Positions 55,291 to 58,055 of a DNA stretch of 64,000 bases are shown here, in pieces (position 1 is the first letter of the stretch; every line of letters starts with the position of its first letter). The notes beneath the pieces are model-generated. The model was not told the DNA's origin and made no database searches. It worked only from the letters and a program-made list of their open reading frames with translations. The translations under genes were made by a program, and so were the position numbers. The stretch is from Gluconacetobacter johannae (GTDB lineage: Bacteria > Pseudomonadota > Alphaproteobacteria > Acetobacterales > Acetobacteraceae), in NCBI RefSeq assembly GCF_014174305.1, contig NZ_JABEQH010000008.1, forward strand, positions 1 to 64,000, given 5' to 3'.

Positions 55291-55788
55291 TCAGTAGGCG
55301 CCGGCCGTGTGACCCGCCTGCGCGGCGCAGGCCGTAACCGCCCGGCCCCAGACACCCGCCCGCAATTCCGGCAGGTCGGTCGCCCGCAACGGATGGCCGC
55401 GCAGGGCGTGAACTTCCTCGGCCGTGTACGGACGGGTGCCCTTCGGCGTGCTTGACCCGCCGAGGTCGAACACGACGAAGTTCAGCACCCGCGCCATTTC
55501 CGCGTCGTCGCGGATCAGCGACATCGACACGCCCGGCACCTGGACCAGATAGGACCGGCCTTCCGGCGTGCAGGTCAGGCTGCCGACGCGGTCGCGCAGC
55601 ACCGGGATGTAGGTCTGCCCGGACAGACCCTCGATCCCGTGGCATCCGCCGCATTTGACCAGATAGGTCGTGCGCGTTCCGTCCAGGGCGCGCGCCTGCC
55701 GCGGCGGTGCAAGGAGGCCGGCCAGCGCCAGAAGAACGACGGCCGGCCCCGCGACCCACGCGACCTTAGGGAAGCGGATGTGCCGCAT
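55291..55788 (-). CDS. monohaem c-type cytochrome of the amine dehydrogenase operon (second)
   Basis: 165 residues. A hydrophobic signal or anchor (about residues 10-35, ending QARA) puts it in the periplasm. One haem site, C46-G-G-C49-H50; M89 in PGVSMS and M98 are the candidate sixth ligands. C73 and C154 are additional cysteines that could pair. It overlaps the upstream cytochrome gene by 23 nt and ends the four-gene operon. Role: electron transfer from the TTQ enzyme, or part of TTQ maturation; no MauG-like second haem motif is present. Confidence 0.9.
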   Translation of the reverse strand: MRHIRFPKVAWVAGPAVVLLALAGLLAPPRQARALDGTRTTYLVKCGGCHGIEGLSGQTYIPVLRDRVGSLTCTPEGRSYLVQVPGVSMSLIRDDAEMARVLNFVVFDLGGSSTPKGTRPYTAEEVHALRGHPLRATDLPELRAGVWGRAVTACAAQAGHTAGAY

Positions 55789-56221
55789 TCAGCGCCTTCC
55801 TGGCGGCGGCCACGGCCGACGATGGCATCGGCGCCGCACGGGACGCCGCCAGGTCGGCCGCCGTGAAGGTCGGAGCCGGCTTGGTCGAACCCAGCGACGA
55901 CAGATAGGTCAGGATCGCCGCGATCTGATCGTCGGGCAGGCTCTTGAAGCTGGGCATGAAGCCGACATAGGTCGCGCCGGCAGCCTGGATCGACCCGGCC
56001 AGGCCGTTAATCAGCACCTGGGTCGCATATTTCTTGCCTTCCGGGGTCGACGCGATCTTGTCGATGCGGTTGGCCAGCGGCGGGAATTGCCCCGGCGCGC
56101 CCACGCCGCCGCCCTGGTGGCAGATGCCGCAATTGGCGCCATAGAGGGCCATTCCGTCAGGGGCGGCAAAGGCGGGCGTCGCCCCGGCCAGACACAGGGC
56201 CAGGGTCAGGATCTTCTTCAT
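55766..56221 (-). CDS. monohaem c-type cytochrome of the amine dehydrogenase operon (first)
   Basis: 151 residues from the ATG that overlaps the light-chain stop (ATGA, 56221-56218). Sec signal peptide (KKILTLALCLAGATPAFAA) with cleavage after about residue 20. One class I haem c site, C31-G-I-C34-H35, with M89 in GFMPSFKSLPDDQIAAILTYL as axial ligand. Ala-rich C-terminal extension (about 112-151). It is the likely electron acceptor of the dehydrogenase, in place of amicyanin, which is absent. It is translationally coupled to both neighbours. Confidence 0.93.
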   Translation of the reverse strand: MKKILTLALCLAGATPAFAAPDGMALYGANCGICHQGGGVGAPGQFPPLANRIDKIASTPEGKKYATQVLINGLAGSIQAAGATYVGFMPSFKSLPDDQIAAILTYLSSLGSTKPAPTFTAADLAASRAAPMPSSAVAAARKALNAAHPLP

Positions 56222-56850
56222 TCGGCGGTTCCTACGATTACGGCTGTCGAACAATTATAGAGAAGCGAGCCCGTTCCGAAACACCAGATGATGTCGTTAT
56301 TGGCCTGCGGACGGTAGGTCGGCAGATCCCCATCCATGCCCAGGCAGGTCTGCTCGTTGCAGGCATCCTGTCCACAGCAGTCGCGATAGGCGATCAGGTA
56401 CGCGCGGCGGTCCTGCGGGTTGAAGCATGTGCCGATCCACGATGTCGGCGACGGCCGGGTACCCGGCGGGCAGCTATGAACCCCGCCGCCGCACGTGGTG
56501 CACAGATTGCCGTCAATCGCGCAATACCGCCAGTAATCGCACTTGGTGTCGTCCTTCACCTGGGCCTTGGCGGAAAAGGGCGACGGGGCGCGGGTCGTGG
56601 GGGTGGCCGCGCGGGCATCGCCGCGCCAGACCGGCAGCACCGGGAAAGCCGGGATCGCGGCCGCCCACGCCCCCAGCCGCGCCAGCGCGCTGCGGCGCGA
56701 CGACCGTCCGGCCAGACGGCGGGTCAGCCGCTCGGCCATGCGGTCGAGACCATCGTGTCCGCCGGTCGTACCACGTCCGGGCTCAGGCGTGGCTTCGGCG
56801 CCCGTCGCATGGGACGGGCGGCCGGTCATGTTTCGTGTCATCGCCATCAT
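56218..56850 (-). CDS. mauA: TTQ amine dehydrogenase light chain (MauA/AauA type)
   Basis: 210 residues. A long leader with the twin-arginine motif SSRRSALARLG (about 50-60) and hydrophobic core, as in MauA precursors. The mature chain has 12 cysteines in the family pattern (CDYWRYC, GNLC, SWIGTC, YRDCCG, IIWCFG). TTQ tryptophans W138 and W189 are 51 apart, exactly as W57 and W108 in Paracoccus MauA; D113 and D157 match the catalytic D32 and D76. The loop between W189 and the last cysteine is two residues shorter. Methylamine versus aromatic amine specificity is open. Confidence 0.93.
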   Translation of the reverse strand: MMAMTRNMTGRPSHATGAEATPEPGRGTTGGHDGLDRMAERLTRRLAGRSSRRSALARLGAWAAAIPAFPVLPVWRGDARAATPTTRAPSPFSAKAQVKDDTKCDYWRYCAIDGNLCTTCGGGVHSCPPGTRPSPTSWIGTCFNPQDRRAYLIAYRDCCGQDACNEQTCLGMDGDLPTYRPQANNDIIWCFGTGSLLYNCSTAVIVGTAE

Positions 56851-58055
56851 TCCCCCGCCGCGACCGTGAAGATAAGCGATTCGCCCAGTTTCCTGATCGG
56901 CCGCACCATCTTGCCGGTGGCGCCGTCCAGGACGTTCAGATCACCGGCCTCGTCGGTCACGAAAATACGCGACGCCGCGTCCTGGGTGACGCCGACCATG
57001 GTGCTGGGGGCGGCCAGATGAATGCGGCGCACCAGCTTGCGGGTCGTCAGGTCGACCTCCCACAACTCGGTCCCCGGATCCTTGTGCGTCCAGAACGTGC
57101 CGTTATGCATCAGGATGAACAGGTGCGAATCCCGTGCCCGCACGGCCGCCAGTTGCCAGCCGCCCGGACGCCAGGTGACGTCGAACGGCGCACGGGCGTC
57201 GGACGCGGGCTTAAGGCCCGCGGCTTCCTGAAGGGACCAGGGCTTGCCGATCCGGGCGTCCGAACCCAGGACCGTGTCGTAGACAAGGCCGCTGAAGGAC
57301 ACGAACCAGACATGTCCACTGGCCGCGACGTCCGGGCTGTGCTCGAAGACGGGGTCCCGATCAGGCACGAAGAACGGCGCGGAATGGGTGACGGTGGGCT
57401 TGGCCGACGCGTCGAGGCTGACATTGGCCAGCGAACCATCGCCGCAGATCGACGAAAAACCCGACACCCCCCACGGATAGACCAGCGCGCAGCCCGGAAC
57501 ATCGACGGTCTGCACCACCGCCTTCTTCGCCGTGTCCACGACATGGACCGAATTGGTCGGGCTGGTGTCGTAGACATAGACGTAATGCCCGTCGGCGCCG
57601 ACCGCCAGGTCGGGCTTCTTGGGCGTCACCAGGGCACGACTCGGCAGGTCGATGTCCATCGTCGGTTCGAGCGTCTGGGGATCGTAGGCCGCCAGCATGT
57701 CATGCCGCTTGCCGCGATTTCCACGTTCCCACGTCGTCTCGGCGACATAGAACGCCCGGCCGGCCGGATCGGCGGCGACATTGGCGTTGTACGAGGCCTG
57801 GACCATACCCAGCAGCTTACCGCTGTCGGTATCGACCACATAGACGCGCCCGTCCTTGTTGTGACGGTACACGGCGTCTTCCACCAGGATCCGATGCGGA
57901 CCAGCAGGCGGAAGCTTCACGATGTCGCTTTCCTCGGTCTGCAGGATAGGATCCGCCGCACCGGCCGGGCCGGCGACAAGGACAGACAGGGCGCCCAGAA
58001 GCGTCAGCGGAGCGGCCAGATTACGGGTCATGCTACGACGTCGTTCAACCGCCAT
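56847..58055 (-). CDS. mauB: TTQ amine dehydrogenase heavy chain (MauB/AauB type)
   Basis: 402 residues. A signal peptide (about residues 9-35, ending GPAGAA) leads a beta-propeller chain: repeated blade motifs such as VVDTDSGKLLGMV, AYDPQTLEPTMDIDLP, VVDTAKKAVVQTVDVPGC and VDLTTRKLVRRIHL. The stretch WRPGGWQ is shared with Paracoccus MauB. With the light chain it forms the periplasmic heterotetramer that oxidises primary amines to aldehydes plus ammonia. First gene of the operon; its stop overlaps the light-chain start. A start at the ATG 24 bases later is also possible. Confidence 0.9.
   Translation of the reverse strand: MAVERRRSMTRNLAAPLTLLGALSVLVAGPAGAADPILQTEESDIVKLPPAGPHRILVEDAVYRHNKDGRVYVVDTDSGKLLGMVQASYNANVAADPAGRAFYVAETTWERGNRGKRHDMLAAYDPQTLEPTMDIDLPSRALVTPKKPDLAVGADGHYVYVYDTSPTNSVHVVDTAKKAVVQTVDVPGCALVYPWGVSGFSSICGDGSLANVSLDASAKPTVTHSAPFFVPDRDPVFEHSPDVAASGHVWFVSFSGLVYDTVLGSDARIGKPWSLQEAAGLKPASDARAPFDVTWRPGGWQLAAVRARDSHLFILMHNGTFWTHKDPGTELWEVDLTTRKLVRRIHLAAPSTMVGVTQDAASRIFVTDEAGDLNVLDGATGKMVRPIRKLGESLIFTVAAGE

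Follow-up and report, generated by a model that had tools for sequence, protein, structure and literature searches.

An aau-type TTQ amine dehydrogenase operon of Gluconacetobacter johannae without mauE and mauD, and a co-inherited cytochrome c as a candidate for TTQ formation

The stretch of Gluconacetobacter johannae DNA analyzed here (the window; 64,000 nucleotides, C8:1-64000 of a 3.63-Mb assembly in 49 contigs that is 99.99% complete) carries genes of a TTQ amine dehydrogenase without the maturation genes known from mau clusters. The methylamine dehydrogenase operon of P. denitrificans, mauRFBEDACJGMN, encodes homologous heavy and light chains with identical TTQ residues. The window operon differs in that mauF, E, D, C, J, G, M and N are missing, while two cytochrome genes, c1 and c2, absent from the three mau clusters examined, are present. 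To our knowledge, the formation of TTQ has been worked out only for systems with MauG. How could the cofactor be made here? According to the original prediction, either the maturation genes are elsewhere, or TTQ is made in another way, possibly with the cytochromes involved.

The window operon and its enzyme

Profile searches confirmed the predicted gene set: four overlapping minus-strand genes between positions 55291 and 58055 encode a heavy chain (H), a light chain (L) and two monohaem cytochromes c (Table 1). ATGA overlaps are found at the H/L and L/c1 junctions, and c1 and c2 overlap by 23 nt. H likely starts in truth at the ATG of position 58031, where a signal peptide begins, and the real start of c1 is probably the ATG at 56221. 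A SpoVR-family gene lies upstream of the operon, and a nucleoside deoxyribosyltransferase-like gene lies downstream on the other strand.

Table 1. Genes of the window operon and composition of the two sister operons
Feature	Position	Strand	Evidence or gene order
H, TTQ amine dehydrogenase heavy chain (aauB/mauB-like)	56847..58055	-	PF06433, E 6.9e-45
L, TTQ amine dehydrogenase light chain (aauA/mauA-like)	56218..56850	-	PF02975, E 1.1e-50
c1, c-552-type monohaem cytochrome c	55766..56221	-	Cytochrom_C PF00034, E 1.2e-10; Thermus c-552, E 3.5e-21
c2, monohaem cytochrome c, c-552 fold, axial-Met loop deleted	55291..55788	-	c-552 homology
C3 operon			H, Dx (MauD-like), L, c2, MauE, MauD
C5 operon			H, MauE, MauD, L, c2, parvulin-type PPIase

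Both chains passed the Pfam cut-offs (H, 153.9 bits with a cut-off of 21 for PF06433; L, 171.2 bits with a cut-off of 25 for PF02975), and the NCBIfam equivalog cut-offs were missed (167 versus 454 bits for TIGR02658; 189 versus 196.85 bits, just under, for TIGR02659). The best PDB match of H was aromatic amine dehydrogenase (2h3x), followed by MADH (2mta). Alignment to the MADH light chain revealed that L, whose nearest named relative is the light chain of Gluconacetobacter azotocaptans (95%), retains the equivalents of Trp57 and Trp108, the TTQ pair, and of the catalytic Asp76. The light-chain cysteine pattern is intact, and the leader is of the MauA, twin-arginine type. Across a survey of 166 light chains, the Trp and Asp motifs were kept in 165-166. 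In aau examples, many light chains read NDINWCMAN or similar where the window L has the MADH-like NDIIWCFG. Judging from these residues, the window-type enzyme is expected to make TTQ.

The mau clusters, which the original prediction took as the yardstick, turned out to be the wrong comparison; the right one is aauBEDA with its cytochromes. Operons of the aau (aralkylamine or aromatic amine dehydrogenase) type have in common H and L, downstream cytochromes c, and the absence of mauF, mauG and amicyanin. In an annotated example, on a plasmid of Pseudomonas aeruginosa RW109, the order is aauB-mauE-mauD-aauA-cyt-cyt. The window operon likewise has H and L with downstream monohaem cytochromes and no MauG, and the adjacent amicyanin, mauF and mauG genes of a mau operon are absent from the locus. 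Neither c1 nor c2 is itself a MauG, each having a single CxxCH and the sequence and fold of the c-552 type. What sets the window operon apart from the aau operon is the absence of aauE and aauD, which lie inside the latter and which the sister operons possess. The Alcaligenes faecalis aau cluster, reported in 2001, reportedly reads orf-1, aauBEDA, orf-2, orf-3, orf-4, hemE, without mauF, G, L, M and N and with a gene for a monohaem cytochrome following aauA; the absence of MauG from that cluster was therefore already known.

MauE and MauD in the sister operons

No genome-wide match to PF07291 (MauE), PF03150 (CCP_MauG) or PF00127 (cupredoxin) lay in the window, and tblastn found no MauF, MauC, MauJ, MauM or MauN in the window locus, in agreement with the claim that mauF, mauE, mauD, mauG and amicyanin are missing from cluster and window. 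The source genome encodes three TTQ light chains. Since the C3 and C5 operons each contain mauE and mauD, MauE and MauD are encoded twice in the genome, outside the window. Two genes of these sister operons are unusual. The Dx gene of C3 (L007 8303-8902), between H and L, is MauD-like and has GCPIS in place of CPVC, and an ordinary MauD follows further along the operon; other acetic acid bacteria also have Dx-like genes close to their window-type operons, frequently on the opposite strand. The PPIase of C5 (L008 12888-13706; PF13145), encoded directly after c2, has an apparent membrane anchor and is possibly an extra folding helper.

In the family, 397 genomes were sampled, and the loci of the 36 with a light chain above the cut-off were fetched and mapped. 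All 13 window-type operons of Gluconacetobacter read H-L-c1-c2. The order in the related genera Acetobacter, Asaia, Gluconobacter, Komagataeibacter, Ameyamaea and others was H-E-D-L-c1-c2, in some cases without a recognised c1. In a tree of heavy and light chains, the 13 E/D-less Gluconacetobacter operons formed one clade (support 1.0), nested in a 42-tip clade (support 0.995) whose remaining members are all H-E-D-L. We conclude that E and D were lost secondarily. The converse loss was seen in Komagataeibacter, where the window-type c1-c2 operon has E and D and two paralogs do not.

In 20 of 20 genomes with at least one E/D-less TTQ operon, MauE was found at 73 bits or more; among them are two distant bins, L134 and L137, in which the second operon is a complete H-E-D-L-c2. 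Another locus, L139, was dropped as an E/D-less operon, as it has D and only missed the E model. Exactly one strong MauE accompanies two light chains in seven Gluconacetobacter genomes, and one strong MauE accompanies three light chains in three Komagataeibacter genomes. With MauE elsewhere in every such genome, the missing genes have an ordinary explanation, namely supply in trans; in the simplest reading of this gene distribution, E and D of the window enzyme would come from the sister operons. Thus, the prediction of maturation genes elsewhere held for mauE and mauD.

MauG, amicyanin and the two cytochromes

The count of MauG covered 153 light-chain loci, each flanked by more than 2.5 kb on either side, a few strains being counted twice. 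Three annotated mau clusters (Paracoccus, Methylobacterium and Indioceanicola), with MauF, MauG, MauJ, MauM and MauN, served as positive controls. MauG, MauF, MauC, MauJ, MauM and MauN were detected in none of the aau-type loci by the same searches that found them in the mau clusters; MauG or MauF was present in 0 of about 150 aau-type operons, the MauF search covering the fetched loci. The idea that TTQ is made in another way is thus supported with respect to mauG and mauF, but as a trait of the whole aau type and not one particular to the window operon. The gene for c2 was present in 145 of the 150 MauG-less loci and in none of the three MauG-bearing ones. In the five remaining MauG-less loci (L016, L023, L134, L137 and L142), H and L stand alone as a pair. 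Another operon with c2 is present in each of the genomes of the first four; the last is from Komagataeibacter europaeus, whose genome encodes MauE. No other accessory gene recurred to this extent beside aau-type operons, as the most widespread neighbour cluster reached at most 42 of 102 loci; shadow frames were present in many of the clusters. A plasmid locus of Thermomicrobium roseum (L170), a distant relative, has several distinct stretches that resemble the light chain, accompanied by genes like MauE and MauD, and no heavy chain was recognised in it.

The NCBIfam TIGR03791 (TTQ_mauG) cut-off proved unsuitable as a test for MauG, since P. denitrificans MauG itself scored 97 versus 444 bits. 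It was replaced by residue checks and by a profile constructed from MauG and related proteins; P. denitrificans MauG, a row of this profile, scored 521 bits. Out of 42 TTQ-positive genomes, four contained no protein with a CCP_MauG domain, and the MauG-based profile had no match in these four or in the distant bins L134 and L137. Two of these six genomes are single-contig assemblies. In G219, c2 is shortened by a TAG before the C-terminal helix; with G219 set aside, at least five firm MauG-less, TTQ-positive genomes remain. Assuming that the conserved light chains carry TTQ, its formation in aau-type enzymes therefore appears to be MauG-independent. There is precedent for such a situation, as the QhpG, LodB and GoxB routes to cysteine tryptophylquinone demonstrate that MauG is not the sole route to a Trp-derived quinone (PMC7876137). 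QhpG, LodB and GoxB are flavoproteins, whereas beside most aau-type operons only H, E, D, L, c1 and c2 recur.

No cupredoxin (amicyanin or azurin; PF00127) was found in the source genome. The absence of amicyanin is normal for the aau type, which has c1 and c2 in its place. Both c1 and c2 are relatives of Thermus cytochrome c-552. The axial Met of c1 is normal (FMPSF) and is retained in 72 of 74 c1 sequences; c1 is probably the electron acceptor.

In contrast to c1 and to Thermus thermophilus c-552, which shares fold and sequence family with both cytochromes and keeps its axial-Met segment, c2 has lost this segment. It has no match in Pfam or NCBIfam and is ca. 17 residues shorter than c-552 between the haem and the C-terminal helix. 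The distance from the haem His to the conserved Asn of that helix is 52-53 residues, versus 70-71 to the corresponding point in c1 and 70 in c-552, and the c2 profile matches c-552 in two stretches that flank the missing segment. Among the c2 sequences, no conserved His, Met or Lys replaces the axial Met; Met occupies position 89 in 55 of 156, and the rest have Phe, His, Gly, Arg or others there. The haem of c2 is therefore likely to be open on one side. Cys73 and Cys154 are both present in 118 and both absent in 21 of 139 sequences, and never occur singly, a pattern that suggests a probable disulfide. An AlphaFold2 model of c2 (mean pLDDT 89) had c-552 as its top fold match, at an E value of only 0.012, and no link between c2 and MauG emerged from the family libraries or from the fold search. 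The invariant Arg78, Asn103 and Glu125 of c2 were considered as catalytic residues and rejected as residues of the fold, being also present in Thermus c-552.

The inheritance of c2 follows that of the enzyme closely. At an E value of 1e-15, the c2 profile matched 37 of the 397 family genomes, namely all 36 TTQ-positive genomes and one of the 361 others, a 66%-complete bin in which c2 begins 279 bases into its contig (Fisher p 2e-50 for the association, a value that ignores shared ancestry). In a phylum-wide sample of 398 genomes, the 11 that contain c2 are the very ones that have a strong light chain (11 of 11 versus 0 of 387). A separate light-chain remnant (L070; G122:C1:1656488-1656691) was noted in a 2.0-Mb genome of the family; it scores 22 bits and contains four stop codons, and c2 is missing there too. 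Together, co-inheritance and the missing ligand loop leave the suggested involvement of the cytochromes in TTQ formation standing for c2, narrowed from both cytochromes to this one. We regard c2 as the prime candidate for a MauG substitute, a dedicated electron acceptor being possible as well. Loss of the axial-Met loop would open the haem to peroxide or oxygen, so that c2 could oxidise the pre-TTQ light chain in place of the di-haem MauG. The likeness between the di-haem MauG and c2, a small monohaem protein of the c-552 type, would lie in this proposed job only, pre-TTQ oxidation by a c-type haem.

Competing explanations and a working model

The source genome does encode three di-haem proteins of the CCP_MauG type, on contigs C1, C24 and C4. 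The axial ligand of the second haem is Met in the C1 protein and the MauG-type Tyr in the C24 and C4 proteins, so that a MauG-like helper in trans is conceivable. The latter two also have the equivalents of Trp93, Pro107 and Glu113, share 35-36% identity with P. denitrificans MauG, and reach 499 and 478 bits against the MauG-based profile, close to MauG itself, although both scores are inflated because the two proteins were rows of that profile. It is nevertheless unlikely that either of them matures all three TTQ enzymes: both genes lie away from the TTQ operons, no protein of this kind is present in at least five other TTQ-positive genomes, of which two are single-contig assemblies, and members of the di-haem superfamily have other functions as well (PMC6405878). 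Less probable still is that the window operon is a decaying or TTQ-less paralog, as the loss of E and D might be taken to indicate. The dN/dS of its genes relative to congeners is 0.09-0.31 (one c1 value, for L040, was omitted, as the match began upstream of a stop codon and gave an out-of-frame alignment), which places them under purifying selection; the operon is kept in all 12 other near-complete Gluconacetobacter genomes of the sample, and both Trp residues, the catalytic Asp and the Cys pattern are intact.

It is quite possible that c2 is instead the obligate electron acceptor of aau-type enzymes, replacing amicyanin, and that TTQ forms autocatalytically or through general periplasmic oxidants. 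In this case c2 would be inherited with the enzyme just as strictly; c2 or c1 occupies the position that mauC (amicyanin) has in mau clusters, and c2 is the only recognised cytochrome beside L in 76 of the 150 MauG-less operons. Yet loss of the sixth-ligand loop with no conserved His, Met or Lys instead is unusual in a pure electron carrier, c2 is kept alongside c1 where c1 exists, and the three mau clusters that have MauG do without c2. Co-inheritance thus fits both a maturation and an acceptor role, while the missing ligand favours a reactive haem. That c2, by itself or with c1 providing a second haem, is the TTQ-forming protein of all MauG-less (aau-type) enzymes is a proposal that we make tentatively.

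As a whole, we consider it likely that the window contains an aau-type operon that has lost its ancestral mauE and mauD, is served by E and D in trans, and yields TTQ without a dedicated MauG, with c2 as the leading candidate. In this model, mauE and mauD were located between H and L of the ancestral operon and were lost in the Gluconacetobacter line. The light chain would most likely be exported via its leader, and its disulfides would be formed and kept by MauE and MauD of the two sister operons. TTQ would then be finished by a route common to all aau-type operons, in which the adjacent c2 may act, and substrate electrons would most likely exit via c1, given that the genome encodes no amicyanin or azurin.

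Our literature search, partial in coverage, returned no paper on a TTQ or aau cluster of Gluconacetobacter and no published account of E/D loss with supply by paralogs, of c2 co-inheritance or of the loss of the c2 ligand loop; the E/D loss, the co-inheritance and the anatomy of c2 appear to be new. The distribution of MauE and MauD suggests that they are a shared service, since, where a genome has several TTQ enzymes, at least one set is retained while others are lost. Most TTQ operons in the sample are without MauG, and in several genomes the searches used here could find no gene of the MauG type. The survey narrows the missing TTQ factor to a single cytochrome that is co-inherited, belongs to no family and appears to have an open haem site.
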